Assembly: GCA_030142905.1 (NCBI GenBank)
Contig: JASJOG010000472.1
Location: forward strand, 89,708-153,707
Reading direction: 5' to 3'
DNA from: Heliopora coerulea
Lineage: Eukaryota > Cnidaria > Anthozoa > Scleralcyonacea > Helioporidae
DNA: 64,000 nt
Shown: piece after piece, positions 19,987-63,060 of the stretch
How the letters are laid out: each line of letters begins with the position of its first letter
How positions within the stretch are numbered: the stretch's first letter is position 1
Position numbers and translations under genes: made by a program
The notes under the pieces: model-generated
Seen by the model: only the letters and a program-made list of their open reading frames with translations
Told to the model about the DNA's origin: nothing
Databases searched by the model: none

Positions 19987-20008
19987 ATTTTCAAAATGGG
20001 TAAAAAAT

Positions 20009-20537
20009 TCAGGGGAAGCATTTGGTGTTCGGTAAACAGCGACAACTATGAAAGGCCAGACTGTGAGGTTTGGTTATTTCTATACAAACTGCTTCAAAAT
20101 CTGTTGGTACAATGTCATGTCTTATCTGGTAGTTTAAAGAGCTACGCAGGTAGATACATACACCACCTCCATTTCTACTTCTATCATTTCGGACAATATC
20201 ATAGCCAGGTATATTAATCATATTATCAGTTATAGCTGGACTAAGCCTGGTTTCATTGAGAGCAAATAAATCTAGGTAATTTTGTGACATTATGTAAATA
20301 ATTTCATTGAGTTTTTTGGGTAAACTCACAATATTCAGAAATGCCATTTTAAATCCCCGTTGTTTTGAAAAAGATTTAAGGTTGCTTAATAGGTCATTGC
20401 AATAGGAAAGGTTGCTGCTCACATTATTCATATTATCATAAAAGGATTTCATATCATTGGGAAAATTGTTACTTATGTTTGTTTCTAATACTTCACTGCC
20501 TATTTCCTGGTAATGTGGTAAACATTCTTCAGATGAA
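20009..20537 (-). pseudogene. LINE APE endonuclease, N-terminal part (frameshifted)
   Basis: It contains LDLFALNETRLSP, the catalytic Glu motif of AP endonucleases, and RNGGGVCIYLRSSLNY. It is separated from the main ORF by a frameshift near 20000-20050. The frame runs a few codons past the LINE edge into Gypsy sequence. Confidence 0.8.
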
Positions 20538-21315: not shown

Positions 21316-22367
21316 TAAAAAATTCTGAAGAATTTAGCAATGTAACTGAACTACCAGTGTCAATTTCCATAGGAACTTCCTTGTCTTCAATTGTAACAGA
21401 TAGTTTGTAAAAGGGTGGTGTATTAGCAGGGTCTCCAGATAATGCAACACTTTTCATGTAGACTGTGAATTGATTGAGAGGAGTCTCTTCAACTTCTCTT
21501 GGAACTGTTTCCCCAGTAGATGAAGCTGTAACATGGTGTGCGTTGGTGCTGTTTTCACTTTCCCTCTTTTTCTTGAAGCAGACTTTAGCTAGGTGTCCTG
21601 TTTTTTTGCAGTAGTTGCAAATAGTTTTTGTGTGGCTGCACTTGTCTGCCCTATGTTGGGAGGATCCACATCTAAAACATTTTTTTCCTTCAGCCTGAGT
21701 TTTTGGCATGGATTTGCTCCTAATATCTTGTTTAGGGTTGTGCTTTTTGTTGACAGTATTTACTGCCTGGAGTTTTGAATTGGATTGGTCTGTATTTGTC
21801 TGTAGTAACTTAGACTCTTTTTCTGCCAACTCGTCAGCTCGAGCAGCACTCAGGGCCTGTTCGAAAGTCCTGTCTTCCGACAGTAATTTCTTCTTTGAAG
21901 TTTGGGTTCTTACTCCCCCAACGAATTGATCTCTTAAAGGTCTAGTAAGGTAGGGACCAAAATTGCAATGCACTGCTAAACATTTTAACTTGTTTGCGTA
22001 CTCAGTTACGCTTTCATCTTCACTGTGGATGGTGTGATGGAAACGGTAGGTCTCCGCCACTTCGAGTACCTTGGGTTTGGAGTAGCCTTTCGAAATTTCA
22101 ACAAGCTGGTCGTATGTTTTATCAGCAGGTAAATTTGGAAGACAAAGATCTTTTAATGTACTGCATGTTTTCTTACCGATCCAAGAGATGGTAAAGGGTA
22201 ACTTTTTTCCTATCTGCAGCTCGCTTTCCCTCTTCCGTAGCATCGTCTGCCACTTGACCAATGTTATTAGCCACGAAGTAAGAATTTAAGCGTTCGCCGT
22301 AATCTGTGAAGTCGGCACCGTCGAATGGTTCCAAAATGCCCAATTGCGGTCCTAATTGCAATGTCAT
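21299..22367 (-). pseudogene. Gypsy gag and protease
   Basis: Gag starts at about 22367 (GPQLGILEPFDG) and changes frame near 22200, so it is frameshifted. It carries two CCHC zinc knuckles (CFRCGSSQHRADKC and CNYCKKTGHLAKVC) followed by the aspartic protease motif MEIDTGSSVTLL. The protease then continues in a different frame at 21315. Confidence 0.85.
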
Positions 22368-26319: not shown

Positions 26320-27227
26320 ATCATAAAAACTTTATTAAAAAAGAAGAAAAATCTACAACTTACGTTTCGGGGACCGGCCCCTTCTTCAGCAGCTCACAGT
26401 TAAAGAATAGAGTCCTTATATACCTTATCGTTCTTCCTTAAATTTACATAAATTTCAAACTTCCATTACATTCAATCCCAGAGGAGTATAACATTTTTAA
26501 TTTTTCAATCCAAAAACCTTCCCTTGCTGTTGGATCCCTAACATCGGTAACATCAATTATTTTAACCGATAAATCTTTCATACCTATATGCTCATTATCA
26601 AAAAAATGTGCATACAGGTGTTCCCCACAAATTCCCCTTTGTCCCCTTTCATATCGTCTCAATGAGCTCTTATGGTTATTGAACCTTAGCCTAAATGGTG
26701 TTATTGTGCTCCCCACATATTGTTTGCTACATCTCTTGCATGTTATTAAATATACCACTCCTTGAGAGTCACAATCAAAGGAATGATTGATATGAAAAGA
26801 CCGCTTCTCAACATTACCCATAAAGGTCGATCCAGTTTCAACAAATTTACAAACTTTACATCTGGCCTTTCCACAGCAAAACATTCCCTTGGACCCCTCC
26901 TCCATAGGCTGCATTTTAGCCCTCACCAAAATATCCTTCAAATTCTTCGCTCTCCTAAAGCTTAACCTCGGAGCAATCGGCAAAAGCTTTTTAAGTACAG
27001 GTACCGATTCAACCAAAATTTGCAATTCTCGAAGAATATTATGCACTACCTGAAGTGCAGGATGAAAGTCAAAAGTCAAAACCAATCTATCAGACCTATC
27101 TGAATTTCTCTTTCCCGTCCCTTTAAGCAAGACTTCTCGATCAAGACCGTTCACTCTACCGATCTGCTTATCAACAAAACCCCTCTCATAACCCCTTTTC
27201 CACAAAAAACCTTTTAATTCTTTCTCC
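26316..27227 (-). mobile_element. Penelope-like element, minus-strand copy
   Basis: The C-terminal half of a Penelope pol: RGYERGFVDKQIGRV and LVLTFDFHPALQVV (after the RT), then GIY-YIG: VVYLITCKRCSKQYVGSTIT, NNHKSSLRRYERGQRGICGE, REGFWIEKL, with stop at 26444. The RT catalytic core is missing, so it is 5'-truncated. The 3' end has a hairpin (GGGGCCGGTCCCC) followed by GAAACG, a hammerhead-like remnant, and stops at (TA)n. Confidence 0.9.
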
Positions 27228-27990
27228 CTACTTTTGACTTTCACCCTGCACTTCAGGTAGTGCATAATATTCTTCGAGAATTGCAAATTTTGGTTGAATC
27301 GGTACCTGTACTTAAAAAGCTTTTGCCGATTGCTCCGAGGTTAAGCTTTAGGAGAGCGAAGAATTTGAAGGATATTTTGGTGAGGGCTAAAATGCAGCCT
27401 ATGGAGGAGGGGTCCAAGGGAATGTTTTGCTGTGGAAAGGCCAGATGTAAAGTTTGTAAATTTGTTGAAACTGGATCGACCTTTATGGGTAATGTTGAGA
27501 AGAGGTCTTTTCATATCAATCATTCCTTTGATTGTGACTTTCAAGGAGTGGTATATTTAATAACATGCAAGAGATGTAGCAAACAATATGTGGGGAGCAC
27601 AATAACACCATTTAGGCTAAGGTTCAATAACCATAAGAGCTCATTGAGACGATATGAAAGGGGACAAAGGGGAATTTGTGGGGAACACCTGTATGCACAT
27701 TTTTTTGATAATGAGCATATAGGTATGAAAGATTTATCGGTTAAAATAATTGATGTTACCGATGTTAGGGATCCAACAGCAAGGGAAGGTTTTTGGATTG
27801 AAAAATTAAAAATGTTATACTCCTCTGGGATTGAATGTAATGGAAGTTTGAAATTTATGTAAATTTAAGGAAGAACGATAAGGTATATAAGGACTCTATT
27901 CTTTAACTGTGAGCTGCTGAAGAAGGGGCCGGTCCCCGAAACGTAAGTTGTAGATTTTTCTTCTTTTTTAATAAAGTTTTTATGATGTTT
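27228..27990 (+). mobile_element. Penelope-like element, inverted plus-strand copy
   Basis: It is an almost exact reverse complement of 26316-27077; the two face head-to-head across about 150 bp (27078-27227). The coding part is 27260-27862 (LRELQILVESVP to the same C terminus). Partial, inverted tandem copies are a known outcome of Penelope-like element insertion. Confidence 0.9.
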
Positions 27991-29440: not shown

Positions 29441-29545
29441 TGATGTTAATTCGGGACATCATCCAGACCATTGCCACTTCTTCATCTTGTTCCACTAGTT
29501 GACTTGCCATTTCGTAGGCCAGCATTCCTCCAAATGAGAAGCCAG
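29427..29545 (-). pseudogene. PKS thioesterase exon, truncated by SINE
   Basis: After TTTCAG it encodes AGFSFGGMLAYEMASQLVEQ, the nucleophile elbow (G-x-S-x-G) of a type I thioesterase. It then runs into unrelated sequence and a stop at 29427-29429 at the edge of the SINE. The catalytic Asp and His are lost. Confidence 0.8.
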
Positions 29546-29559
29546 CTGAAAGAATAAAA

Positions 29560-31431
29560 AGGTAATAGGAAGATATAGGAGTTTTGTGACTCACGTCTCC
29601 GTTTATCTATTTTTAAAAAGCGCCTAAAAATAAAAAAATAAAAAATAAAAAATAAAAAATAAATAATAAAAAATAAATAATAAAAAATAATAAATAATAA
29701 AAAATAAAAAATAAAAAGCGCCGAGAAAATAGGTTTTCTTCATTGTAGTATGTAATGAAATAGGAGCTAAATTCACTATAGGGCATAATTCAGTATAAAC
29801 TGCAAACAGATGAATTCAACTCAGAGTGTGGCAAATGGTGACGCTGTCCATTTGAAGGCAAGGCTTTTTGCAAACTTAAATTAGCACTTTTTCGAACTGA
29901 TGAAATGTTTTACAAGTCACTATGAATTAAATAGACACGAACTGTTGCAAATTTAATCTTTTTGAAATCCTGTCTTTCCATATTTCAGCAACATAACCCT
30001 TTCACTACCAAGTTCTTTATAGTTTGATTGAAAATTCAACGTAAGTATACTATTGATAGTTAAAGGATTTAACGTTCATTACGTGCAAAGGACTGGTTGA
30101 ATGTACGAGTCACCTTCTTCGGTACGGTCAATTGTGAAAATAGCAAGATCAAATTTTACTGTATCACAAACTTCATGTGACTGTAGAATCTTGTCTCTTA
30201 CCCCTCACTAATTGGATAAAAGCACTATTATGGACATCGCGATCCATTTGGTTTCACGGTGGCTGGACTAGGTAAGGTCAAACCAGTCACCTGACTGAGG
30301 CATGAAAAATATTTCAACTGCGGAATTGAAACTAGGAGTGATACAGCAATACAAACAAGATTGCAAATATTTTTGCTGTAGTTTGAACTCGGAAGTCGAT
30401 TAGAAGAATATTTTTTTATAGGTCAAAAAGGATCGATTGCATAGACAATTAAGCATGCCAGAACGGTCTGCTTTTTTCTTTTTCGATCGATTTTCTTCTT
30501 CATTTGTGCAATGTGGCACAATGATTGGTGCAGCTGGTTGCTAGGTCATTATGGCTAATTTGACCAATTAACATCTAAGAGAAAACTTGCAAGAATTCCA
30601 TTGAGTGGAACTTTTCATATAAATGTAAGGTTTTGTTAGTCAGCAGCGGCTTTTTCTAACATAAATCAAAGCCTTTCCAGAGTGATATCAGAGGACGCTT
30701 CTCCCCAAAAATATCCTAGGTTTGAGTGTAAAAGTCGCAACGGCAAATGCAATTTTCGCTGTGATCAAAGAGTGCAAAGATTTTTATCGTACGTAGAAAG
30801 TTCGTATGTAGAAAGCAAAGAATCGTATGTAGGAGCAAAAAGATCCCTTGTGGAGTCATAGTTTTCGAAATAAGTCTTTTGTGCTGCGATTTTGCCTGAT
30901 TTTTTTTAAAAATCTGAATTTTTGAAAATGGTCAAAAGCTTTCGAGCAGACGCGTCGGGACCAAGAATGTAAACCCATCGGAGCCATTAACCCCTAAAAA
31001 CTCATACACCCCTAAAAACTCATACACCCCTAAAAACTCATACACCCCTAAAAACGTCCAATATGTTCACGACAACTTAATTTCGAGTTCCTTGCTTGGG
31101 AACGAGTGGATATAAATCCCGACAATACCGGAACAGCGAGTCTAATAAATCTTTTATCATTTAGTTTGAGCGCATTGCATAAAGTTAACAGTTGTGATAA
31201 AAGTTTAAATTTGAAATGAAGTTGACAACGTTTATGGTATTCATGCTTCCCTTTAACTTATTTAAAAATAACCTGTTAATAATGTTATTCCTAACACAAC
31301 TTACTATGATGGATAGCCGTGCTTAAATAGGTGCGCATACATTACAGCATGACTCAGCGTTTCCATGACATAACATGATTTCAAATAGTACATAAAATCC
31401 AATCAGAACTCACAAAATACATATATAAGTG
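29560..31431. other. PKS intron, repeats only
   Basis: It contains (AAAAAT)n at 29630-29715 and four copies of an 18-bp unit (ACCCCTAAAAACTCATAC) at about 30987-31055. No other coding sequence was seen. Confidence 0.6.
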
Positions 31432-31469
31432 TTAGGAAATTGAATATAAATACAATATATTTCTCATAC

Positions 31470-31605
31470 CAATGTAGTATGGACTCCTTGGCTGCTCTTT
31501 TTGAATCAACTCAAAGTATCGCTTTCCAAGAACTTGGACTGTGCCATAGGCACTTGTCTGGTAAGTTGAATCATCCAATCCAATGCTATACAGTGCAACA
31601 AGAGT
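31470..31605 (-). pseudogene. PKS thioesterase exon, N-terminal part
   Basis: The acceptor is TTGTACTTCAG and the donor ATTG|gtatga, phase 0 to 1. It encodes TLVALYSIGLDD, then GTVQVLGKRYFELIQ and QPRSPYYIG, the region just before the GxSxG motif of thioesterases. This 136-nt piece is intact. Confidence 0.75.
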
Positions 31606-31639
31606 CTGAAGTACAAAGTTCATGAGACAAATAAGATTT

Positions 31640-33316: not shown

Positions 33317-33637
33317 TTGTTGTTGAAAGCCTAGTGCAAACGGAGCATTTGCCAGCGCTGATTTTTGGCTGCTATGTACCATAAATACTTTCACGTACGC
33401 TTCATCCGGAACATAGAGTGGAATTATTTTTTCCTTAATCTCTTTTCCCTGAAGATCGACGTTTTGAAAATCTTGCTCGTCGCGAGGAAACAGTGGGACG
33501 TCTTCCTCAAGTGGAAAACCGATTCTTCCATTATTCGTTGATTCCTCGTCGTTAGGTTCCTCGTTATCTTCAATCTGATCCAGTATGTCTTTGATTATTG
33601 TAAGACCAGTAGTCTTTGGCTGGATGAAGTAGTACGT
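33317..33637 (-). pseudogene. PKS exon after ACP (linker to TE)
   Basis: The acceptor is TTTTGTAAG and the donor CAACAA|gtaaga; 107 codons, phase 0-0, open throughout. It encodes TYYFIQPKTTGLTIIKDILD (end of the ACP), an acidic linker, then PLYVPDEAYVKVFMV and APFALGFQQQ. Confidence 0.75.
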
Positions 33638-33664
33638 CTTACAAAATGACATAAAGAGGAACAA

Positions 33665-38840: not shown

Positions 38841-38853
38841 TTTAATACATTAC

Positions 38854-39218
38854 CTCAAAAGAAGCACCGACACTGTTTTTTATTTGAATGCCCATGCTGC
38901 CTGCACCAATTGAATCTATTCCATATTTGTAAAGACCAACACTTAAGTCAACTTCTGCTGGGTCTCCTCCTGACCATGTTGACAATAAATTTCTAACGAA
39001 CTCTTTAACGTAGTTCATTCGTAGTTCTAATGGGTGACGCCTCAACTCCTGTAACGTTGTCATACTTTGAAGTTTACTGAACGACAAAATCTCATCTCGA
39101 ATTAACTGCAACCTTGGAGAAACATGGTTTCTTAAGTAGACTGGCCAATTCACGTCGCAAAGGCAAACTTGAGCTTCGTTTGGAATTTGAAGAAGGAAAC
39201 GTTTAAGAAATTCCATCC
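38854..39218 (-). pseudogene. PKS exon: KR end and acyl carrier protein
   Basis: The acceptor is TTTAACTCCAG and the donor TTTGAG|gtaatg; incoming phase 1, outgoing phase 0. It encodes the KR C terminus (CLCDVNWPVYLRNH) and the ACP with YGIDSIGAGSMGIQIKNSVG. The Ser of D-S-I is the phosphopantetheine site. This exon is open throughout. Confidence 0.8.
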
Positions 39219-39305
39219 CTGGAGTTAAAGCATTTTGAGACTATTTTAGGATTTAAACTGTAGCAGATTAAGCAGGATATAAGTTCATGTTTTTCATATT
39301 CGTAC

Positions 39306-39584
39306 CTGCTTTGTGTAATATAGAATTAAATCCCTGTTTCTCAAGAAGTGCTGCAACATTTTTGTTCCTCTCAAGGACCCCAGCGTCACTAATGAGTCCT
39401 CAGTTTACTGAAAGCGCTGGTAGACCAAGCCTGTACAGCCGGTATTCACAGAGACTATCTAGAAAAGTGTTAGCTGCTGCGTAGGATACTTGCCCGGCAT
39501 TTCCAAGAACTCCCGATATGGATGAGAACATGATGAAGAAATCCAAATCCATTGAAAGACTTAGTTGGTGAAGCAGGACACTTC
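39306..39584 (-). pseudogene. PKS exon: ketoreductase catalytic part
   Basis: The acceptor is TGTTCACTTAG and the donor AGCAG|gtacga, phase 1-1. It encodes [20 protein letters not shown] and [10 protein letters not shown], giving the Ser, Tyr and Asn of an SDR-type ketoreductase. A TGA at 39400-39402 replaces the Trp of the conserved N-W-G motif. Confidence 0.8.
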
Positions 39585-39827
39585 CTAAGTGAACAGTTAG
39601 CATCGAGAAAAAAAAATCAATTCTCGCTTTTTTATGGACGATTGACTGTTACAACTTTGTATAACTTGTTAAATATGCATGCTTTGCATGTTATTACAAA
39701 CAAATATGAAAAAGTAAACGCTGAGGCTAACGTACTCTCTTACAAATGGGTGTTAATATATATTTCCTTTCCAATATTTAAAGTACGTCATTATGTAAAG
39801 TTTTGAACGAGATAACAACATACTAAG

Positions 39828-39897
39828 GTGTATTTCAACCAAATGCCATGAGTTGTGTTTTATTCATGAGCGCCATGGCATATTGTTGAAACGCACC
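39828..39897. repeat. Hairpin repeat in PKS intron
   Basis: GTGTATTTCAACCAAATGCCATG pairs with CATGGCATATTGTTGAAACGCAC across about 23 bp; a small MITE-like hairpin. Confidence 0.6.
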
Positions 39898-40223
39898 CTG
39901 GTGTGATTACGACACACATCTCCGAGGTGTGGTGACACATCTTTGTGCACATTAAAGATTGGACTAAAAGGCCGTGATTACTGTCTCCATTTTTATATTG
40001 TAACACGCTCTTTTTATTAATTTAAACAAGAAGTAAACGCTCACGTTCAGCTACAAAAGAAACTCAAGAACACTCACATAAATTTCAAGATCGTCATGGT
40101 CACCGGAACGTATTTTTAACGGTACAAAATCACTGGGTCACATACAAGTGCATGAGTACGTTTTTATAGAAAGATGTCCATGGGTATGGTGACATGGAGT
40201 ACTCGGAAACAGAAATGACTTAC

Positions 40224-42791
40224 CTAGGACTTTTGTTGACAATACCCGTTCACAAGTCTCAAAATCTGCGTCTTTAATCATTTGATCATCTAAAACCATT
40301 GCACTGTAAACGCTCTAATTCTTGTTTAACGACAGTCATGTCCTCCCTAGAGGTAACATCCGCTTGACGGAAAAGGATCCGGCACCAAGTTTCCTTTTCC
40401 AAATGTTGCGCCTCGGATTTCTTCTCGTCGCTTGGAGGCGAGCGTGCAGTACACATTACCATCTTGGCACCATTTTCCACCATCCACCTTGCTACTTTAA
40501 ACCCAAATCCTCGTATGCCACCGATGACCAAATACGTTCGATTTCGCCTAAGACCATTTGAATCAAGAGCCAATCTCAGAAATTCTACTTTCTCTGGAGC
40601 ATACTTTGGCTTGAAGGACACAGTGTGTAAACGAAGTTCCGTCTGCCTTTCAGACTTAAATCTCGTAATCATAGAAGCGTTGTCTAATCTAATGACATCA
40701 AATATACTGGTCGATACCTGAGGCATTTTCAGAAGCTTCTGCAAGAATTTGGTTGAAGCAAGGACAGACGTACAAGCGTCCAACAAACTTGAAAATCTTT
40801 TGGAATTCTTGATAACGTCATCCAAACTTGTCTTGATGAAGCTGAAATCTTTCTCGTTACTAACATTGAGTTTGTTGCTCTTTTCGTCAGAAACGGCAAT
40901 TACTTGGCCTCCTGGCTTCAAGTGTTTCATAACCTTTTGGAGAATGATTCCACGGAGATTTTTTAAGAAGCAAATGACGTCCAAAGTCGTATCATTCAAT
41001 TCGTCACCGATTGCCAATTCTTCTCGTGTAAGAACCATGGGGATTCCATATCGTTTTAGTTGATTTTTACCTCGCCAGTCTTTGGTCAGGCTGATAATTT
41101 ATTCCCCTAAAGAAATTGCGATAAATGGAAAGATACAACAAATTTCCTCTTCCTCGTGACACACCAGAATCTTCTTTCCTTCGACTGCGGTGACGATGTC
41201 TTTGATGAGGTGGTAAGAAATCGCCATCGGAATAGCCAGCGAGGCTGCCTGTTGGGCAGTGACTTCATGGTTAACTTTAGTCAAACAGGAGCACTCCTCA
41301 GCAGCGACATAGCTTTCAAGGTTTCGAGCTTCACAAACACCAACCATCAGATCTTCATCCTCGTAAGTGTCTAATTTGCTCCGCAGTTTCCCAACTACAG
41401 TAACATTGTCGGACATGTTCAGGCTAGTCCAATATCTCTTCAAAACTGGACAAGCAAAGAATACTTCGAGCACAGGACTTTCTCCTCCACGATTTAATCC
41501 GTTCGTTTCTAGTAAAAAGATTTTATTCGAGATGAACGACACTTTGAAAGCTTTTGGATTTCCCGATTTGTTGATAGGAGGTTCTTCTTTGGTAAGTTTC
41601 ACCTTTCTAGCTTCTAACCTCGTCAACTTGTTAACGTAACGCAAACCATTCCGATAGGCAATTTCTTCATTAATTACCACTTGTCCAATGTCTGTTACCA
41701 TCTGCTGAAAATCATTTGCGTTTGGGTTCTCTGGTAAGTCAATTACAGAAGCGTTTGGTGCGTCTAGGTCTTCAGAAAGAGTTCTTGTAAAACCGAAAAT
41801 TGAGCTTGACCAAGGAAATACTGGTTCGCTTTCTTCGGGAGCAAAATAATCTACATTAGATCCGCCAGTTATTGAAACTATTCCTGATGTCACAAAGACT
41901 AGCTGAATTTCTTTGGTGAGATCTTCTTTCTTTAGGATTTCTTGCACCAGAAGGAGTGAACATTCAAACGTAAGAATATGCGATGGCTTAAAATTCTGAG
42001 AATCAGCTTTATGTTGGCTGGCATATACCGGCCAAAAGTTGATTACCACAAGCTTGTCATTCTTTTCTTGTGTATATCGTTTGCTCAGAATTTTATTCAG
42101 TGATTGCGAAAGCTAGGCACGAAGTTCCTCGGCTGTGTCTTGTATATCGACGAACGTTGCTGTCTCGTTACCCGGAAGATGTTCAAAAAGCATTTGAGCA
42201 AAGCCACGCCGGTCTCGTAAGATGAGCCATGTTTTGCGCTCTGCTGATTCTTGTGGCTGTTCGGTCGTCAAGTACTCTTTGCTCCAGGCCATCTTGAATA
42301 TTACATCTTTGAAACTTGCTGTGGGTTTTAGCGTTGAAAGATCAATCCCAAGAAATCCATTCAGTAGCATGACGCCTGTACCATAGCAGTCCATGAGAGT
42401 GATGTTGAATCGTTCTCCCTCTCCGGAGGGAATGGTCCTTACATGGCTGAATAAAGGACGACTTAAGTCTTTACGCAAGACTGTCGCATTGCTAATCTGA
42501 TATGGCACAGATTTTGCTTGGCTCTGTGTAACTAAGAGAAGACTCTGAAAACAGGCATCGATGATGAACGGGTGTATGACATAAGCTGACAACGTATTGA
42601 AGATTTCGTCCGTAAGATGGATGGTAGCAAGTGCTTCATTATCATTAGACCAAGTCTGTGTGATCAGACTAAATTGGGCCCAAAAAGAAAGCCCATCTTT
42701 TCACGTTTCTCAATAAGATATCCTGGCGGACGTTGGACCATCCGGGCTTTAATGGCGTCGAAATTATAAAGATCCACTGTTTGTGGCTCAT
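40224..42791 (-). pseudogene. PKS exon: DH end, ER-like and KR N-terminal part
   Basis: It begins phase 1 (ACATTTAG|AT GAG) and ends CTAG|gtaagt. Contents in order: PPGYLIEKREKMGFLFGP and SAYVIHPFIIDACFQSLL (second half of DH with the Asp motif); an inactive-KR or linker region (LVFVTSGIVSITGG); ER-like VTVVGKL and AAEECSCLTKVNHEVTAQQ; KR NADPH site GGIRGFGFKVARW. Lesions: frameshift near 42680, TAG at 42113-42115, TAA at 41099-41101, and a small deletion/frameshift near 40310 just before the SAMVLDD segment. Confidence 0.8.
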
Positions 42792-43358
42792 CTAAATGTC
42801 AAGAGAATAGAAAAGTATGGATTCTTGGTTTAAGGATAAATATTTTCTTGACTCACTCCTTGGTAGGATGTCTCGCCTTGATGATAAAAATCATCCTGCG
42901 TTAGCCAGAGTAAAATAATCTGATATTCCCTGGAGTGAAATAATCAAATATTCAACAAATATTTGGAATTGACAGTCGATTGTAGGAAACCAAGTTTATA
43001 TATGATTATATATGACTATGATCCAAGCTTATATATGACCTCCCAATGATATAGGGCGGACATGTGGGGAGCAAGGGAAGCATGAACCTTCATTTTTTAA
43101 ATTGGTGGGAGAAGCTCCATTGCTTTCCAAAACTATAACATCTGTACTTTAAATGCTCATGGATCTTGACATCTGGCGGAAATTGCATACAACAATGCCA
43201 GCGGTACTATTTATTCGGGTTATCACCGACACAAAATTATGATCACTTTGTTTAAAAAATAAGAACAAACGCTGTGCAGAGGATCATTAAAGCCGCTTTA
43301 AACGATGGGCCATTAGAATAACCGTTGAAATTAACATAAATGAAATTGTTTTATTTTA
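42792..43358. other. PKS intron
   Basis: Contains a copy of the dispersed GTTAGCCAGAGTAAAAT motif at 42851-42917 and nothing coding. Confidence 0.6.
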
Positions 43359-43359
43359 C

Positions 43360-44144
43360 CTTGATTTTCTTCGGTGATATCCAACCGAACAGAACCTTCA
43401 GACAGAACCATTTCATTCTCGTTATCTTCCACTTTTGTTATCTGATAATAACTTCCTTCAGTTGAAGTTTGACAGGTGTGCAAGCGAGTGCGAAACTTGG
43501 GACAATCATTGCTGGATATTGTCAGCAAGTTGCTAAACATGATATTATGCGCATTTGGCACCGTTCTCGGAAACATATGGAGTACCAAAGCGAAAACCAT
43601 TTCAACATAAACAGCAGCGGGTATTACCGGATCGGGAGATTCTTCAAATTTGTGATCCTTTAGATACGGAAGAGTAAATAAATCTACTTCAGATTCCCAA
43701 GCATGTAAGCCCGAAAACGCTTTCGTGGAAACATGTTTTCCCAGAAAAGGAAGACTACCTGTCAATGCCATTGCCCTTTCTCCTTCTTCCATCTTTTCGT
43801 CAAGGGAAGTGACGAGCTCAACGGGATGGCCGTCACGATACCAGAACTCGTTTTCTTGCCAGGGATAAGTCGGACGCCTAATGAAAGATCTGGATCCAGA
43901 TCCTTGAATTCTATTCCACGAAAGTGGAACCCTTTGGGTGACTAGCGGCACAATTTTGCAGAAAAGACTTGTGCTGTTCGTTTGCTGAGCGTTTGGGGAG
44001 TGTTTTGATTACTACCATATCGTTTACGTTTTCAGTCCTTGCTTTCTTGAACTGCGACCAAATTTGGTGAACGTGTCGGGAGTGTTGAGGACCCGCGTTA
44101 ATTTCTACAAAAGCACGATAACCATCATTAAACATGCTTTCCTA
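43360..44144 (-). pseudogene. PKS: AT end and dehydratase N-terminal half
   Basis: The last part of the large first exon. It encodes the AT end (FVEINAGPQHSRHV), RVPLSWNRIQ, and the DH start with YLKDHKFEESPDPVIPAAVY, whose His is the DH base. A TAG at 44142-44144 and a frameshift near 43945 interrupt it. The donor at 43359 (CAAG|gtaaaa) leaves phase 1, matching the next exon. Confidence 0.8.
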
Positions 44145-44950
44145 GGCAGAAGACAAAAGAACGGTTTGACGGATGTTTCTCCACCAGTGATCTCTGGAAA
44201 GCAGTTTTCCCAATATTTGGGTACCATTTACCGTTGAGTAAAGAGGAACACTTCCTTGACATGGGCGAAGCTTTATTTTTCTCGTCTCCTCAATAAAAGA
44301 CTGGCTGATTCCTTCCATTTGACGACTATGAAATGGTCGTGCAGTGCCAAGTGTTCTCCAAAACACACTACTGAGGTGTTCATGAATGTGTCTCTCAATC
44401 AGTTGCATAGATTCTCTATCACCAGATAAAACGACGTCTGTTGGACTATTAATGACAGCTATATCTACGCGATTTTCAAGCTGTACATTGCGCAACACAT
44501 CACTAGCATCCTGTGGTGACATGCCAATTGCTGCCATACGTCTAGCTGGTGAACAATTTTCGTGCAGTTGAGATCGAATTAAAACCAAGTGCAGAGCAAT
44601 GAGTTAGACTCAATGCTCCCAATGCACATGTCGCCGAGATTTCACCAAGACTATGACCAACAACAGCCGATGGTTTAACTCCCCAGGATTTCAACAAATT
44701 GGTCAACGCAAAATGTACCTCGAACAGAGCTGTCTGTCCAATTAGATTTTCGTTCTTTTTAGAGGTCTCCTCCGAGCTGCTAAACTCTTCTGTTAAGGAC
44801 CAGCTAATTCCCTTGGGTCTAAGTATTTTATCTATTCTTTCTATGCTCTCCTTAAAGGTTGGTTCATACATCATCATTTCTTTTGCCATGCCATACCATT
44901 GACTTCCTTGCCCACCATATAGAAACACCACTTTGTTAAAGGGTACAGTT
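44145..44950 (-). pseudogene. PKS acyltransferase domain
   Basis: FLYGGQGSQWYGMA opens the AT, GHSLGEISA holds the catalytic Ser, and RPFHSRQM holds the His. A one-base frameshift near 44590 lies 15 residues after the catalytic Ser. Confidence 0.85.
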
Positions 44951-45239: not shown

Positions 45240-46540
45240 ATGGCGTTTGTGATTCTTCTTGGAGTATCACATGAGCATTGGAACCTCCGTAACCATAGGA
45301 ACAAACTGCAGCTGTCCTTGGGTTGCCAGTCTTTGAGTTCCATGGTTCATTCTGTACTTGAACCATCATCTTCCTTTCTGACATCTTTAGCTGTGGTTTG
45401 ATGTTATGGACGTTAATGGTTGGCACAAAATACTCATATTTGATCATAAGACAGGTTTTTATCAGCCCCGCTAGTCCAGCTGTCGATTCAGTATGGTTGA
45501 TGTTTGATTTTACTGAGCCTACACGAAGTACTCGTGTGCTGCTGTTGCCGTAAACACTTGCAATGGATCCCATCTCTACCACATCCCCTATAGCAGTGCC
45601 TGTACTATGTGCCTCGACATACTGGATGTCGTCTTTTGAAAGGCCAGATTCAAGTAACACTCTCTTTGCAAGGTGAGCTTGCGTCTCTTCACTAGGTGAA
45701 GTCATTGGTATCGCAGTTTGACCATCATTGTTCAAACCACACGCTACTATCTCAGCATACGTTCCATCCCTGTCTTGAATGGCTACTGCTGTTGGTTTTA
45801 GCACGACAGCAGCTATTCCTTCACCTCTTCCATAACCGTCCCCGCTTAAGTCAAAACTTTTACACCGACCGTCCTCAGCTAGCAGTCCAGTTTTACAACA
45901 AGCCGTGTGAAATGTTCTACCGGATAGCAAAATTTTTGGAGCACGCAAAATTGCTACGTCACATTCACCTGTCTGCATATGTACAAACGCAAGATGAAGC
46001 GCTGTCAGTGAAGAGGAGCATGCAGTATCTACCGTCAAGCTTGGTCCCGTGAGGTTTAGAGAGAAAGAGGTACGGTTTGCTGCAACTGAGGACGTACACC
46101 CAGTAGATGCAAACTGGTCAATTTTGCGAACGTTTGGCCTGTCCAGAAGCAGACCTCCATAATCTAAGTTCATAAGACCAACATAAACGCCAGTTCGACA
46201 TTGTTGTAAATCTTCTAAACGTAGACCAACATCTTCTATTGCCTCATAAACAACATGAAGAAGTAAACGTTGTTGTGGATCCATGGAGTGACTCTCAGCT
46301 GATGACATTCCAAAGAACTGCGCATCAAAACCAGATACTTTGTCCAGGTAAGCTCCTGTCAAAACATAATGTTTTCCCGGGGTGCCTCTTTCTGGATTGT
46401 AGGGAGCTAGCATTTCTCTTGCATGAGGTCTGTTTGTTGGGTAAGAACTTATATCACATTTACCTTCAACCAACATATTCCAAAACTCGTCTTTCGAATT
46501 AGCACCAGAAGGAAACCGACAACTAATGCCAACAACTGCT
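45240..46540 (-). pseudogene. PKS ketosynthase domain (open frame)
   Basis: A complete, uninterrupted KS: APIAVVGISCRFPSG at the start, SMDPQQRLLL, catalytic Cys in VDTACSSSLTALH (about 46020), EAHSTGTAIGD and KSNINHTESTAG with both His, and YGYGGSNAHVIL at the end. All three catalytic residues are present. It is the C-terminal continuation of the RND transmembrane frame, with a roughly 55-aa Lys/Ser-rich linker between them. Confidence 0.9.
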
Positions 46541-46993
46541 ATTGGAGCAAACTTCCTAGTTAGACTAGGTTTCTGCACTTTCTCTTTGTTTTTGTCGTCT
46601 GAAGGAGCACTACCCCGCTTTATTGACTTATTCCATATCTTAAGTAGCTGCTCGATTGGTGATATGTCTAGATTAAAAACCTTCCCTAAAAGAGACAGGT
46701 ATCCAAGTAGTATAACCAAACCATGTAATAGACCCGGCACAACTATTCCAAAGAACGTCTTAAAAAATATTCGGAAAACAATCGAAGATCCAAAACCGGT
46801 TGGCATCATTCCAGAAACGTGCTCAGTCCTCCATGTAAGACACTGCCGCCAATGGTGCTTAGTGCATCCACGACACGAAGTTTGGGTGATCTGGCCTTGG
46901 AGGTAACAAAATGATAAATTACATGGGCATTGTACAGAGAAACCCACTTTTTATCAGTTTCAACTGTAAAGTGTTTTACCCTCGTTAAATAAA

Positions 46994-47025
<32 letters not shown>

Positions 47026-49280
47026 AAGGTTGATCATCGAAATGGAATTGATAGAGATGTCCCATACATACATGAGACCAAGCAGTTCCAGAATAATGGT
47101 GATAAAACCGCACAACAAACACAGAATTATCATTAGATGGACTAAGAAGAGCGGTGATATTAGAAGAATTGAAATTCCAGCAATGATAAGATCTCGTACG
47201 GTCTCGTCCAAAACTTGAGCATATTGTTCAAAATAAATAAACGGTAGCGCGACTGCAACCGCATCGAGATCGGAGTAAAGAGATAGATCTTCAAGTAGGC
47301 TGGTCATCATCTTCCTCTGAAAATTCGACCGGGGGTTATTTTTAGAAAAGACCAGGATCCTTGAAGCTGCTATGTGAGTCCTATTTTCAGAAAATTTAAC
47401 TTCTTGAGCAAATGTTCTGTAATGCGGTAATGACAGAAAATACTGGAGTTCTTCATAAAAGCTATCGATACTGTTTATCTGAAAGTTGTTGACGTTTGCG
47501 CACCTTAGAAATTCTGACAACCAAGATAAGGTCTTTGTGTAAAATACTCATTGGATGTCGCGATAGATTGGAGATCTAAATATTTCTGCTGAATTTCACT
47601 GCTACTATAGTCTACATTTCCTGGAATAACCAGATTCACCTCTATATCCAAGTGAAAATGTTGTTCATAAACGTCAAGAAAACTTCTTTAGTAAAAGTCT
47701 TCACTAGTTAGTAAATGTCGACTGAAACTTTCATCCACATGAAGAGCACCATATACTCCACCGGCCAAGAGCGCCAAGGATAGAGAAAAAACCACAGTTT
47801 TCCCTGGAATAGTTGTCAAAATTGTACACCAGCCTTTCATCACGTTATCTAAAGCATTTCTTCGAATCCTTGTGCAAAAATTTATCTTGGACGAAAGATT
47901 ACTAATAAAACAAGGAAGGAAATCCCGACGCTTTGAATTTATTCTCTTGATGTCAAACCAAATACAGGCCACAAAGAACGTTACCAGCATGAGGAACGCA
48001 AACGTAATGGCTAAAGCAGCATAAGCGCAAAAGAATCGAACTGCGGGGAAGACTGAACGACAGCTAACTGGAAATGCTACCAGATCTGTTAAGGTTGTCA
48101 TGGTAATGGTTGGACTACTTCTCGCCATAGAACCACTCAAAATATGAACAGCAGGAATGTTATCACGAATAATTTCATTTAGGTTGTGAAGGATGATAAA
48201 CACATCATCAACACCGATGATAACGACCAAAAACGGTAGTACACCGACCATGTTAATAAATGAAATTCCAATGTACATTAACAAACCAAAGGCACTTGTT
48301 ACCCCTAAATAGATAGCTAGCAGAGCACAAAAACCCAACAAATGGTGACCGTAGAGAGGATCTGCACATCTTCCATTAACAATTGAGCTGGATAAACCCA
48401 TAATTGTAAACGTCACGGCAAAAGTCTTATATCAGACCCAGTACTTTCCGATACAGAATCATCTGGACTTCTCTCAGCAGAATACACAATATTTGCTCAG
48501 GTAGTGTTTTTGGAGAATTCCGACATTATCTCAATGAATTTACTCTCCCAATTCAATACGTTACCTCTTTCTTTCTGGTTGGATGGTTTTGTCATAACGT
48601 AAACCATCAGTAACGCATTCGTTGTATGCAATGAACTGTTTGAAGCTCTTTTTCCGAAGATTAAGTTAAAATTGTCTTTTAATCGCCTACCATTTGACAT
48701 AATAAAAGAATTGTTGCGAAACACAGCTTCAATTCGGCCAGAAATGTTGTAAAGTCTAGATTTACTGTATTCGAAGAGTTCTAACAGATTTGTGAACACA
48801 CATTTACCCATCGATTTTGGGCGATAGAAATATTTTTCATAACCTTTGATTTGGACAATCCTTACGTTTACATCAATCATTTCTGCTAAGCACTCCTGTG
48901 AGAGAACAATTTTATTTTCTTTTGGTAAGATGATGACTTCCTCTTGTCTGACTTCTAGATGAAAACCGAATGTTTTTGCTTTGTTTATATTCCGTGATGC
49001 CTGACTGTTTTCAGGCAAAAACAAACATTTAACTTCCTTTTCAACACTGAGTTGAATAAGTCCAGATGTGAAGACAATTGCGAGAAAAATTGCCAAGAAA
49101 ATTACAAAGAGAGGACGCTTTGATATGAACGAAGCCCATTTTTCAAAAAGCCTTTCAAGAAAAATTAAAAAGATCTTACAGAACCAATTCCACTGCTGTT
49201 GGAGTGGAGCTAAACACGTTGGTGAAGACGTCTCAAGCTTGCTATGGTCAAGATTGTTATCGGCAGTTGACTTCATATTT
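46541..49280 (-). pseudogene. Patched/RND-type membrane part with sterol-sensing domain
   Basis: After an acceptor (AATTTTTCAG at 49281) it encodes a cytosolic start, TM1 (RPLFVIFLAIFLAIVFTSGL), and a large extracellular loop with N-glycosylation sites. Next is the sterol-sensing domain: MVGVLPFLVVIIGVDDVFII (GVDD, as in Patched), then RSSPTITMTTLTDLVAF. A second extracellular loop and the last TMs follow (FKTFFGIVVPGLLHGLVILL). RND proteins have 12 TMs with two such halves; the order here fits. Stops at 48497-48499 (TGA) and 47688-47690 (TAA), and frameshifts near 48420, 47540, 46925 and 46825, break it. It is continuous with the KS in one frame. Confidence 0.8.
46970..47032 (+). mobile_element. 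5'-truncated LINE/SINE 3'-tail insertion
   Basis: CAGTTTCAACTGTAAAGTGTTTTACCCTCGTTAAATAAAGTT(ATT)n is inserted inside the RND coding region between INLV and GFSV. It reads as a retroposon 3' end with polyadenylation signal and microsatellite tail on the plus strand. Confidence 0.65.
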
Positions 49281-55016: not shown

Positions 55017-55135
55017 GATCTTCAAGCTCTATACTCAGAAAATGATTTCTGAGCCCCAGAGGGGGATCGAACCCGCAACCTTCCGATAACCGGTAAGACG
55101 CTCTAACCATTGAGCTACCAAGACTCAGATGGTGA
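55017..55135 (-). mobile_element. tRNA-derived SINE (minus copy)
   Basis: On the minus strand: box A TAGCTCAATGG, box B GGTTCGATCCC, then GGGGCTCAGAAATCATTTTC and a tail to GATCTTCAAGC. The anticodon arm is not a normal stem, so it is a SINE and not a tRNA gene. Confidence 0.7.
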
Positions 55136-57845: not shown

Positions 57846-60827
57846 TCAAGAGTTCTCTTCAGTCCCAAGGATTTTCAGTCTTTCTCTCGCTACGATTGTT
57901 GCTGTTCTCTTCGGTCTGAAAACAGGGGCGTCTACGTTCAAGGTAGTTGGTGTGGTCGTCTTGGTTACGTCACAAGATAATTCCAGCGGGTAAAGATGCT
58001 GTATTGGTCTTTCTAAGTAATCCCTCCCGGCCCGTAGCTTCACCGCTCGGATTTCGCCATCTCGACCTTCGATCAAAGTTTGAACGATACCCAAGGGCCA
58101 TTTGCCTCTACTTTTTTCTAATGGGGATTTTATGATCACCACGTCCCCCACTGCCAACTGTAGCTTGGTGCCCGGGTGTTTCATGTTGTGTCGCTCTCTC
58201 AAGGCGCGAAGGTACTCCTTAGTCCACCGAGACCACATGGCTTCTTTGCACCTTCGTAAGTACTTTCCTCGCTTCCTCAGATCTGTATCTTGAAGGTAAT
58301 GTGGCTCTTGTTCGGGCAACAGATTTGGACCTTGGAATAGCATGGAAGATGGTGTCAACACAGGAAGTTGAATGTCATCTTCTACGTAACAGAGAGGTCG
58401 ATTATTCACCGTTATTTCTACATCCAATACGACATCACAGAGTTCAGGCCAGGTAAGCAAGCCATTCCCAATGGTTTTATGAAACGCAGATTTCACCACT
58501 CCAACAAGCCGTTCAAATTGCCCTCCCCACCATGGCGCTCTGCTTAAGTTGAAGGTCCACGAGATGTTGTGCTTCGTCAAAAGGGCATGAAGTTGTTCGT
58601 CGAATTGCGCCTTTTTTAGCCACCTTGCTGCTGCGATAAACGTTTTCCCATTGTCAGAGTAAATTTTCTTCGGACGACCACGACGAGCAATAAACCTTTT
58701 TAGGCTACGGATGAATTCACCGGTTTCTAGATTAGGCAAGACTTCCAGGAACACGCCTCGGCTGAGACTGCAGGCGTATAATACGAGATATGCTTTGCTT
58801 TCTACCTTTCCCTTTCGTCGATACTTGATGGGTCCCGCAAAATCCACTCCAATTGTCTCGAAGGCAGTTGTTCCCTCAGTTCGGGAAGTTGGAAGTAAAC
58901 CAGGAGGAGGCTGGGCGTGCGCAAGGGCCTGAAATCGCTTACAGCCCCAACACCGCTTAATGACGCGTCTCGTCACTCGTCGAAGGCGTGGTACCCAATG
59001 ACGCTCACGAACTTTAGCCATTGTAAGACTTACACCACCATGTAGAGTATCTTGATGCGCTTGCTCTACAAACTTCTCGGTAAATTGGCTGTCATCAGGA
59101 AGGTAGGTGGGATAAAGTCCTTGAATCCGACCGCGACATTCAAGGATTCCTTCGGAATTCGGCTGAAGATTTAGCTGTAATCGATCTTCCTCGTACTTTG
59201 GACGATTTTTCGCACGATCTTGTTCACGCAGAATCCACCATTTTAATTCTCGTTCTACTTCGTCAGTCGTAATTGGCCCGACTATCTTGGGATGTCTTCT
59301 GAAATTCTGTACCAGCCGTCTAATCCAAACACATACTCGCAAGGTAGTTCTGAGATTGCGTCTTCCCAACAACTCACCAAACTCATCAGTTTCGTCGATT
59401 GTGATGGCCATTACTTCTTTCACCATTTTTGCTTCTGCTTCCGACTCCTCACTAGCACTTGTCGCAGGATTTTGGGGCCATTGTTCAGGATGAGGCAACC
59501 ACACTGGCCCTTTCCACCAAAGATTATTGTTGGAGACAGGTCCGCCACGACTACCAAGGTCAGCAGGGTTCTGTGCAGTTGGTACGTGTCTCCAGGATTT
59601 AACTTCGTGGTTCTGGATCTTCCGAACGCGATTTTCAACGAATTGGCGATACTCTCCTCCACCACAAATCCAGTGCCGGGCCACTGTACTGTCGAGCCAA
59701 CAATGGACTTCTGTTACCGGAAAACCTTCAAGTGCTGCTCGCAAGTTATCGACAAGATTGACAGCCATGTGTCCAGCGACCAATTCCAATCTCGGAATGG
59801 TTAAACTTCGTTTCGCCAGTCTAGATTTCGCGGCGACAATTCCTTGGCTAACTCCAGAGGTCTGTCGAACAACAGCATAAATGGCAGCACAGACACCACG
59901 ACCGCTGGCATCACCAAAGGCATGTAATTCCACCGCTTCTATTGGCTCTCTATGCGTCACTAAACTGCGTCGAACCGTGACTTTCATAGGCAGGCTCTTT
60001 TCCCATTTCTCCCATTTCTTCATCAAGGGTGAAGGAAGAGGAGCGTCCCACGCTTGTTTCGTGTCACAGGCGTCTCGGTATAGGATCTTTCCTTCAAGCG
60101 TAACAGGAGAGACCAATCCAAGTGGATCGTACACCTTTGCTAGTTTTCCGAGTATACCTCTCTTAGTAGGTTCTGCGTTCTTTTCCGGGAAGGAGGTGGT
60201 CAGCGTGTCCTTTTCGCAGTCCCATCGCAGGCCAAGTAGATTGCATTCACCACTTGTGAGCACATTTAGTTGTTGCTGAACATACGAAGGCTCCCCGTCC
60301 TCCTCGGTGATATTATCGTACATCAACTCCGGCACGTTGGAATGCCATTTATGGAGGGAAAACGCGGCGTCAGCAAATATCTTGTTCGCTTCTTCCTTAA
60401 GGTCTCGAGCATCGCTTACTGTTGCTCCACCAGAAATGAGATCGTCCACATATAGGCTACGTTCAATCTCGTTCACGGTCGTTGGACGTTCTTCTCTCCA
60501 GGATTCAAGATGCTGCTCGATTACTCCCGCCAATAAAAAAGGGGAAGGAGCCAGCCCAAACAAGGCCCTTGTGAAGCGAAGCGTCTCCACCTCTGTAGAA
60601 TTAGGATGTTTCAACCAATGGAAACGAAGGGAGTCGCGCTCCCTTTCTTTAATACGCACTTGTAGGAACGCTTTACGAAGATCTCCAGCGACAGCCACGG
60701 GGTGGAATCTACCACGCACCATCACGTTCCAGAGTTTGTTTTGCAACGGTGGGCCAGGGTCTAAACATTCATTTAGCGAAGGATCTTTGTTTCCACCTCG
60801 AGCTGAGCAATCATAGACCACTCTCAA
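57846..60827 (-). CDS. BEL/Pao pol: RT, RNase H, integrase
   Basis: 993 codons, uninterrupted. RT: LRVVYDCSARGG, AVAGDLRKAFLQV, LYVDDLISGG at about residue 126 (catalytic DD). RNase H region: LHAFGDASGRGVCAAIY, HCWLDSTVARHW and AQNPADLGSRG. Integrase: an H...H...C..C zinc finger (HQDTLHGG, RCWGCKRF), then FETIGVDFAGPI, IYSDNGKTF and WWGGQFERLV, giving the D, D and E. The reading frame upstream is the same as that of the gag/protease ORF, with a single TAA (60843-60845) between them. Confidence 0.95.
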   Translation of the reverse strand: MRVVYDCSARGGNKDPSLNECLDPGPPLQNKLWNVMVRGRFHPVAVAGDLRKAFLQVRIKERERDSLRFHWLKHPNSTEVETLRFTRALFGLAPSPFLLAGVIEQHLESWREERPTTVNEIERSLYVDDLISGGATVSDARDLKEEANKIFADAAFSLHKWHSNVPELMYDNITEEDGEPSYVQQQLNVLTSGECNLLGLRWDCEKDTLTTSFPEKNAEPTKRGILGKLAKVYDPLGLVSPVTLEGKILYRDACDTKQAWDAPLPSPLMKKWEKWEKSLPMKVTVRRSLVTHREPIEAVELHAFGDASGRGVCAAIYAVVRQTSGVSQGIVAAKSRLAKRSLTIPRLELVAGHMAVNLVDNLRAALEGFPVTEVHCWLDSTVARHWICGGGEYRQFVENRVRKIQNHEVKSWRHVPTAQNPADLGSRGGPVSNNNLWWKGPVWLPHPEQWPQNPATSASEESEAEAKMVKEVMAITIDETDEFGELLGRRNLRTTLRVCVWIRRLVQNFRRHPKIVGPITTDEVERELKWWILREQDRAKNRPKYEEDRLQLNLQPNSEGILECRGRIQGLYPTYLPDDSQFTEKFVEQAHQDTLHGGVSLTMAKVRERHWVPRLRRVTRRVIKRCWGCKRFQALAHAQPPPGLLPTSRTEGTTAFETIGVDFAGPIKYRRKGKVESKAYLVLYACSLSRGVFLEVLPNLETGEFIRSLKRFIARRGRPKKIYSDNGKTFIAAARWLKKAQFDEQLHALLTKHNISWTFNLSRAPWWGGQFERLVGVVKSAFHKTIGNGLLTWPELCDVVLDVEITVNNRPLCYVEDDIQLPVLTPSSMLFQGPNLLPEQEPHYLQDTDLRKRGKYLRRCKEAMWSRWTKEYLRALRERHNMKHPGTKLQLAVGDVVIIKSPLEKSRGKWPLGIVQTLIEGRDGEIRAVKLRAGRDYLERPIQHLYPLELSCDVTKTTTPTTLNVDAPVFRPKRTATIVARERLKILGTEENS

Positions 60828-60845
60828 TTTGGTGCTTTCGGCTTA

Positions 60846-62420
60846 TTCACGAACGACAGCGCGATGTGGCATGTAATATTCCTTCCCCACCACTTCAAGA
60901 GGTGCCCTTTCGACTACGCCTTGTACCAACTGTTCGCGAATGATGGCATCGTACTCTTCTAGTCTTCCCATTCTGTTAAGCTTCCTAACTTGTGTCTGTA
61001 ACCGTTGCAGGCTTCCATTTCGGTTCGAAGGTAGAGGAGGGTGGTTTCCCTTCCAAGGTAGGCCAGTTTCGTACCAGCCTTCAACAGGATGGCGAGAAAG
61101 CTGCTCTCGAAACTCCTCGTAAACTACTCTTTGATCACCCGAGGGCGAATCAGCTAGTCCAAGGACATCAAGGCTACACAGGCGTTCGTAATCTGAGGAG
61201 GAATTAATGGCAAGGAAACCATTTGTCCGATCAATTCCGTCTCCTGGCGCCATGATCACCCATCTGAAACGGGTCAGTTCGGCTACAGGTTCTCCTTGTC
61301 TACCAAGACGCAATTGCGTATTAGTGCGAATCTTGGCGTATTCGTTTGCTCCAAGTATCAAGTGAACTGGCAAATGGTCGTCAGGGGTCTTGTCTTCCAT
61401 AACCACACTTTGTAAGTGCTGGTGTTCCTGAATAAGCTTATCATAACGTGGATTATCAAGAGTTAACAGTTCACGTTTGTTTATAACGGTTACCTTGGCA
61501 TCTAGGGTGAAATCTCCTCTCAACGACTTGAGTACAAAGTCATGTTCCACTAACTTGGCTGTGGTTACGCCAAACAATGTAGTAATCTTTCGGGTACTAC
61601 TCTTCACAGCTTTCGTTTTCACTAAACTCGTCAACGTCGTCGATGCGTACGAGTGACTCGCTCCACTATCGAGTAGCGCTCTAAATTTAATCCCATTAAT
61701 CTTGACTACAGCGACCGGATGTACGACGGAAGTTCTACGAACACTCGTTGTCAACACTCTTTCTTCTTGTTCTTCAGAGGCTTCAGGGCAAATGGACGTA
61801 TGGTGTCGTTTTTTGCATTTCTGGCACGATATCTTGCTCTTGCACGCACTCGCTGCGTGAAGACCGTTGGCACAGTTAAAACAAAGGCGTTTCTTCGCCA
61901 AAATTCGTTTCCTCTCATTTGGGGATACCACTTTGTCACACGAGCTCATCTTGTGGTCGGCACTGTTACAGTAAATGCACCGGATTTCTTGTTCTCGGGA
62001 ATTTAACGCGCGTGCACTTGTCGAATCCTTCTCTTTGGTTTTCTTACTCATGCCTTTAACATTGTCGTTGGTCTCCGTCCACTTTCTCAAGGCCTCTAAA
62101 AGTTCTTTAAATGTCCAACTTCTCCAGTCACTTTGGACATGCGACACCAGTTCCGCTTTCACCGCCTCGAGCTTTTTCATCACATAATACACCGTCCCTT
62201 GAATAGTGTCTAATTTCTCGAGAGTTTCCAAACTCTGGACGTTAAATAACAACTGCTCGTAAAACCGATGTATTTTCGGAACATCTCGCTCTGTTATGCT
62301 CGGTAGCTCAATTATGCTGACTACATAAGAACCGGCGACTTTGCTGGGGTGGCCATACTTCTCTTCTAGATATTTTAATCCCCGCTTATAGCCTTCTTCA
62401 GTGAAAGGGTAAACAAACAA
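60846..62420 (-). CDS. BEL/Pao gag end and aspartic protease
   Basis: FTEEGYKRGLKYLEEKYGHP is the typical BEL gag (DUF1759) segment. Three Cys-rich knuckles follow (CIYCNSADHKMSSC, CFNCANGLHAASAC, CQKCKKRHHTSIC), then the protease FRALLDSGASHSYAS and the RT lead-in (GLPWKGNHPPLPSNR). It stops at TAA 60843-60845. Confidence 0.9.
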
Positions 62421-62453
62421 TTGCGCGCCTAATATGAGGTTCCACCAATTCCT

Positions 62454-63005
62454 TCAGATGAGAAAACTTGGTGATTGGAGAAACGTTTTTGCGAATCGAC
62501 CATGGCGTTGAATTGGCCCGAAAAGCGCACCCCAATCATGCGGCTTGCCATTGAACCTTGTTATGTCTAACTTCGGCAATTTTGCAGTTTTTTCCGAAAG
62601 TTCTCTCTCTTTTAGCGCGGCCTCTAGTTTCTGTTCTAGGAGTTGTTTCTTGAATTTCATTTTTTGTTCGCAACTTTGCGCTAGCTCTCGCTGCTTGGCA
62701 CTTTGATCAAGTTCTTCTACAAATTTCAACAGTTTGTTTTGGACTTTGTCCGCTTCGGTAACACGCGCATCAATTTCATTTGACCATTGTTTTACATTTT
62801 CTTCCGTGTCACCTTGCCCGAATTTCGCTTCTTCAATGCTGCCTTTTAATGTAGTAATCGTACTTACGATTGTTGCGATGGATTCCTTTTGTCGTTCAAC
62901 TGCAATTAACTCTCCGGTACTTAGAATTCCGTCAGTTCGCTTCAGGCGAAATTGTAGAGCCTTTAACTTGGCGTCCATCTCGGAGAGTTGTTTCTTGAGA
63001 GACAT
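62454..63005 (-). pseudogene. BEL/Pao gag N-terminal part (frameshifted)
   Basis: It starts at 63005 (MSLKKQLSEMDAKLKALQFR), a coiled-coil region, then LPKLDITRFNGKPHDW, the conserved BEL gag motif. The frame then slips at about 62535 and again near 62420, so it does not join the next ORF directly. Confidence 0.85.
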
Positions 63006-63060
63006 ATTTCACGTGCGCATCCAGTTATACGAATAATGATCCCGTAGGAGGTGCCAGTAA

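Follow-up and report, generated by a model that had tools for sequence, protein, structure and literature searches.

A Patched-type membrane protein fused in frame to a polyketide synthase in Heliopora coerulea

The window studied here, a stretch of 64,000 nucleotides from contig JASJOG010000472.1 of the Heliopora coerulea assembly, carries on its minus strand a broken gene in which a Patched-type RND membrane protein is followed in one chain by a polyketide synthase (PKS). The fusion is real and not a product of pseudogene decay, and we incline to the view that the polyketide is made at the membrane and then exported by the Patched half of its own synthase. The gene, delimited by profiles and tblastn, runs from 49276 to about 29448, with its domains in the order Patched/SSD (RND), a linker, then KS, AT, DH, KR, ACP and TE, and with no clear ER between DH and KR; SSD stands for sterol-sensing domain, KS for ketosynthase, AT for acyltransferase, DH for dehydratase, ER for enoyl reductase, KR for ketoreductase, ACP for acyl carrier and TE for thioesterase. 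Its parts are given below; P0003, P0028 and P0029 are homologous proteins, and C579 and C89 other contigs of the same assembly.

46681-49276, minus strand: Patched/NPC1-type RND half with SSD, broken by stops, frameshifts and a TTA-repeat insert (PF12349, PF02460; tblastn with P0003 and P0029; disablements)
46546-46680, minus strand: linker from transmembrane segment 12 (TM12) to the Pfam start of the KS, in frame on both sides (same open frame; 49 residues if counted to the VGI motif of the KS)
45409-46545, minus strand: KS, with the Cys motif and NHTES intact and EAHSTGT in place of EAHGTGT (PF00109, PF02801; motif alignment)
43950-44928, minus strand: AT, disrupted by one frameshift and one stop (PF00698 in two pieces; tblastn; disablements)
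42353-43750, minus strand: DH, split by an intron at about 43357-42790 with donor GGTAAAAT (PF21089, PF14765; donor comparison)
40540-42112, minus strand: region at the ER position (no Pfam match in this piece; none of the ER family in P0029 or P0028)
39403-40537, minus strand: KR, in at least two exons (PF08659; tblastn with P0029)
38845-39231, minus strand: acyl carrier region with a GIDS motif (tblastn with P0029; PF00550 in P0029, 4e-5)
33317-33640, minus strand: exon between ACP and TE (tblastn with P0029, E 0.006; a similar exon in the C579 and C89 copies)
31468-31611, minus strand: TE exon (tblastn with P0029, E 4e-5)
29448-29579, minus strand: TE exon with a GFSFGG motif (tblastn with P0029, E 6e-4; PF00975 in P0029)

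A preliminary description of this DNA had proposed that the Patched part and a complete KS share one frame, and both claims hold: a single stop-free frame of 802 codons (46950-44545, minus strand) contains the RND transmembrane stretch FKTFFGIVVPGLLHGLVILL of the Patched half (46764-46705, minus strand), the linker, a KS complete by Pfam (PF00109, 4.1e-70; PF02801, 1.6e-33) and, after it, the initial third of the AT. The interval assigned to the fusion in that description, 46540-49280, takes in no more than the Patched half and the junction. The piece upstream of the KS matches the Patched and SSD profiles (PF12349, 1.1e-32; PF02460, 5.4e-27). Exon 1 extends to about 43357, comprising the Patched/SSD RND part, the linker, the KS, the AT and the start of the DH, and ends at the GT donor GGTAAAAT, which is common to two open paralogues; the later exons carry the rest of the DH, the ER-position region, KR, ACP and TE, those on the TE side matching P0029 weakly (tblastn, E 0.006 to 4e-5). 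That this copy is dead, as had been noticed at the outset, was clear from the alignment of exon 1 with P0003, in which 1224 of 1940 residues are identical and three in-frame stops, six frameshifts and the TTA-repeat insert were counted. The window copy would have arisen by duplication and decayed afterwards.

Homologues were sought with the C-terminal half of Patched plus the linker as a query and a length rule of about 1670-5300 residues, and 40 proteins were returned. PF02460, PF12349 and PF00109 are all present in 27 of them (P0001-P0027, predicted proteins of 1700-1989 residues on other contigs), so the junction is not due to chance. The same Patched, SSD and KS families are found in P0029, a EukProt model of 3629 residues that continues to the thioesterase, and in P0028 (Dendronephthya gigantea LOC114544389) 387 residues of the Patched C-half precede the KS; the remaining 11 are PKSs without Patched. 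Homologues in which the two parts were always separate genes had been named beforehand as what would overturn the fusion, and the opposite was found, with PF02460 and PF00109 together in 28 of the 40 proteins and the Dendronephthya protein as the 29th. Clustered at about 80% identity, the 29 fused homologues together with the window sequence make up 14 groups. P0029 holds AT, DH, KR, ACP and TE in one chain by Pfam, as a type I PKS does. No ER family (PF00107, PF08240) was detected at E<=1 in P0029 or P0028; two marginal PDB matches lie at the ER place of P0029, one of them VAT-1-like with an E value of 0.005, and an ER remnant is possible there.

A search with Patched alone (47 sequences) added five sequences with a KS (P0161-P0164 and P0181), while many other Patched sequences stop at an apparent exon edge before any KS; two PTCHD3-like proteins, P0175 from Actinia and P0190 from Hydra, reach their C-terminus with no KS and are 41% and 37% identical, respectively, to the Patched half of P0001. 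With P0029 as a query, under a length limit that left out P0001-P0027, only P0029 itself covered both Patched and KS among the best 120 of 7819 matches, the others listed covering at most 72% of the region. The spacing from TM12 to the KS motif is 46-49 residues in 30 of 30 aligned sequences, the window included; elsewhere in that alignment, variable stretches are equally constant in length, and the linker length was dropped as a sign of a functional tether for that reason.

In the Heliopora coerulea assembly (429,824,877 bases in 769 contigs), a PF00109 profile search in which the best eight candidates were scored gave at least six KS hits, five of them fused to Patched, namely four open frames and the window copy, and the sixth a fragment of 52 residues with stops on contig C290. 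The four open frames, two of 1857 residues on C89 (C89a and C89b) and one of 1964 residues on each of C579 and C135, are candidates for the functional paralogue that the preliminary description had set as the real target. Protein identity is 96.7% between C579 and C135 and 99.6% between C89a and C89b, which are separated by about 47 kb on the same contig. Over 11.8 kb, the DNA of the C579 and C135 copies diverges by 4.1%, against a heterozygosity of 0.73% in a Heliopora genome paper that used HiFi reads and purged haplotigs (PMC10267220), so they are likely paralogues, and their being haplotype copies was rejected. The window and the copies elsewhere in the genome have exons for the later domains that match P0029 in the same order; no TE was found for the C135 copy within the stretch of contig examined. 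The C89 loci (L019 and L020; C89:112440-114965 and 159475-162000, minus strand) are near-identical tandem fused copies with a degenerate Patched half. Apart from the fused genes, only the C290 fragment appeared among the eight candidates scored, and a cytosolic type I fatty acid synthase (FAS) was not visible among them.

Selection was measured on exon 1 by the NG86 method, with a binomial test that assumes a neutral nonsynonymous share of 0.765. Between C579 and C135, dN/dS was 0.336 for Patched (19 nonsynonymous and 16 synonymous changes; binomial 0.003), 0.091 for KS (4 and 13; 6e-6), 0.254 for AT-DH (37 and 38; 3e-7) and 0.247 for exon 1 overall (63 and 71; 1.7e-13), with too few changes in the linker for a ratio (3 and 4; 0.06). 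In this pair, Patched, KS and AT-DH are all under purifying selection. Comparison of the window copy with C579 gave 0.337 overall, 0.208 for KS, 0.453 for AT-DH and 0.342 for Patched. The KS and AT-DH values exceed those of the open pair, as recent decay would predict, and the Patched value does not.

Gene trees of both halves had been proposed as a check from the start. Octocoral-type Patched sequences form a single clade (support 100 in the larger tree and 100/100 in the smaller), and the Patched halves of P0029 and P0181 fall in a second one (99, and 100/98). In the smaller tree, which holds 31 of the 77 sequences, a single clade for all fused Patched sequences had a log-likelihood lower by 5.4 and a p value of 0.185 in the approximately unbiased test, and is thus not rejected; seven sequences without a visible KS were counted as fused in this test because of their placement in the P0029 clade. 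The label "fused" takes seven changes on the larger Patched tree, where most unlabelled sequences of the fused clades are cut before the KS position. The KS halves of 11 fused sequences group in one clade (100/100) against 30 other KS taken from P0030-P0159, which are bacterial by name or nameless and leave out animal FAS and other animal PKS, and those of P0029 and P0181 sit beside the octocoral sequences. The histories of the two halves thus read from sequence appear compatible.

Among 38 fused sequences, the KS Cys is present in all 36 in which its site is aligned (there are gaps in P0025 and P0161) and the AT Ser in 35 of 35. In the motif alignment of 30 sequences, the KS Cys motif occurs in the window and in 28 of 29 homologues, and the first KS His (within EAHSTGT in the window) and NHTES in all 30, completing the Cys-His-His set. 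On the membrane side, the Asp pair of TM4 is found in 31 of 37 fused sequences and the Asp of TM10 in 34 of 38; the window copy has the TM4 pair, and its TM10 site coincides with a frameshift. The Patched half of P0163 is predicted by modelling to adopt a full NPC1/PTCH1 RND fold, with both halves and the luminal domains, and NPC1 and NPC1L1 are among the folds nearest to the model, of which residues 812-1044 (linker and KS stub) have pLDDT <50 and are uninformative.

The sequences show fused frames in the window, in the rest of the genome and in other assemblies, along with catalytic motifs, a match of one relative to the RND fold and, in one paralogue pair, purifying selection on both halves; we infer that the protein likely makes a lipid-like product at the membrane and exports it itself. 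The open copies are predicted to run on through KR, ACP and TE. RND proteins of the NPC1/PTCH1 fold have both termini in the cytosol, so the synthase would hang below TM12 on the cytosolic side. KS, AT, DH, KR, ACP and TE are present with no ER match, and an unsaturated or hydroxylated chain, left unreduced with no recognisable ER, is predicted on this basis. After release by the TE, the chain would enter the RND conduit, and a cation relay through the acidic residues of TM4 and TM10 would power its transport. Speculatively, the product may have a role in the calcium carbonate skeleton, either by helping nucleation or as the octocoral polyene pigment.

Export through the fused RND half is favoured as somewhat probable, and several observations weigh against it. 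Patched evolves with a higher dN/dS (0.34) than KS (0.09) in the open pair. P0027, with the same first and last residues as the C89 copies, is of one sequence type with C89a and C89b; all three miss the first luminal part of Patched and have altered acidic sites (Asn-Val in TM4 and Glu in TM10), while their KS and AT motifs are intact. Between C89a and C89b, dN/dS is 0.12 over the open frame, and the degenerate Patched half may be only an anchor in this type; a natural switch from transporter to anchor is possible in these copies. In addition, P0025 is devoid of the KS Cys segment, P0164 lacks the TM10 Asp and one KS His, sea anemones and Hydra have unfused relatives of this type of Patched, and a link to the skeleton would be a guess for the second fused lineage (P0029 and P0181).

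A serious rival, tentatively held and less probable than export, is that the Patched half anchors the synthase at a membrane, be it the endoplasmic reticulum or some other, and acts as a sensor of sterol or lipid, exporting nothing. In HMG-CoA reductase, a sterol-sensing membrane part regulates the anchored enzyme, and the sterol-sensing match in both the window piece and P0029 is in line with such a role, as are the two copies of the same genome that keep the synthase motifs and not the RND acidic residues. A similar AcrB/SSD fusion in Chromera is taken by its authors as a probable association with the endoplasmic reticulum (PMC7464705). Against anchoring, most fused sequences retain the acidic residues of TM4 and TM10, and the P0163 model suggests a complete RND protein with two halves, not the layout of HMG-CoA reductase with one sterol-sensing half before the enzyme.

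It is rather improbable that the Patched half takes up a fatty acid, a sterol or another lipid from the membrane as a starter or tailoring substrate for the synthase. NPC1 and NPC1L1, near in fold, carry sterol inward, which agrees with such a supply, but P0029 shows no Pfam trace of a special starter-loading domain, and mycobacterial MmpL proteins, many of them from PKS loci, export lipids (PMC7261415). That a deletion in this pseudogene, or an error of gene models, brought two neighbouring genes together, so that no fused protein exists, would fit the broken state of the window copy and the many database Patched frames ending at an apparent exon edge, but is very improbable in view of the predicted proteins that span the junction in other assemblies, the four open frames in a genome built from HiFi reads (PMC10267220) and the purifying selection on open copies; as a deletion artefact it is refuted at the DNA level by the fused homologues and those four frames.

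The preliminary description had considered the architecture new in animals. No animal Patched-PKS fusion was named in the literature searched, a coverage that left subscription journals mostly and preprints wholly outside, and the claim stands to that extent, qualified by two cases. The alveolate Chromera velia has two AcrB/SSD-coupled PKSs in print (Cvel_8275 and Cvel_22311, of 4523 and 4384 residues; PMC7464705), which, like the window gene, have an N-terminal RND/SSD-like part before an apparent single PKS module in one gene; they are described in one passage, the likeness is by description only, and their origin may be common or separate. No Chromera-named sequence was among the matches listed in the Patched-linker, P0029 and Patched-alone searches, in which many sequences are nameless. 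In the stony coral Acropora digitifera, aug_v2a.12941, 16843 and 16847 are tabled as other-KS-AT-DH-KR-(ACP*)-TE (Hojo et al. 2015, PMC4604110), an identical domain order, and the nameless "other" part may correspond to this Patched fusion; a turtle PKS is also tabled as other-KS-AT-DH-KR-ACP, so "other" is not specific to Patched, and the same table has no PKS in Hydra and Nematostella.

In mycobacteria, too, an RND exporter works alongside a type I PKS, and PKS loci contain many of the mmpL genes (PMC7261415), although the partners are separate polypeptides there and one chain here. Animal-encoded type I KS enzymes are known in the PKS/AFPK families (Lin et al. 2024, PMC10764717), for which no description of a membrane fusion was found; the words "patched", "transmembrane" and "coral" are absent from the main text. 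Within Cnidaria, the PTCHD3-like proteins of Actinia and Hydra are relatives of the Patched half and differ in having no synthase. The main texts of PMC11959691 (on octocoral calcification), PMC10267220 and PMC5976621 contain neither "polyketide" nor "patched", the parts seen of PMC12833800 and PMC12560086 have nothing on a Patched-PKS fusion, and two PKS genes of Palythoa are mentioned with no detail (PMC11413580).

Elsewhere in the window, several frames resemble mobile elements by eye: near-identical frames on opposite strands (26444-27340, minus, and 27218-27862, plus) with a GIY-YIG-like C-terminus in the style of Penelope-like elements; open frames of 998, 536 and 184 residues resembling a BEL/Pao retrotransposon (57846-63008, minus); and a LINE-like reverse transcriptase frame of 820 residues adjoining pieces of a Gypsy-like element (17611-22285, minus). 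A weak Rfam tRNA match (55052-55124, minus; 32.1 bits against a gathering threshold of 29) lies outside the Patched-PKS gene, and ARAGORN called no tRNA gene in the window, this one included.

If the favoured reading is true, polyketide synthesis and export would be united in one animal protein, an arrangement otherwise known as separate mycobacterial partners or from a passing remark on Chromera. It is possible, if doubtful, that reef-building and soft corals share a self-exporting PKS that predates the split between octocorals and another cnidarian lineage, which may be the stony corals, moves a polyene-type product into the skeleton-forming space and supplies a nucleator or a pigment. Octocoral polyenals with 6-14 double bonds have been reported (PMC13115693), both PMC4930200 and PMC13115693 cite Raman work on octocoral polyenes among their references, and the fused gene would be a candidate for octocoral polyene colours. 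A medaka PKS product is reported to be secreted and to nucleate otoliths, and sea urchin pks-2 to be necessary for spicules (PMC4604110); the gene would likewise be a candidate for the role of PKS products in starting coral calcium carbonate, which Hojo et al. proposed on the basis of these two animals.
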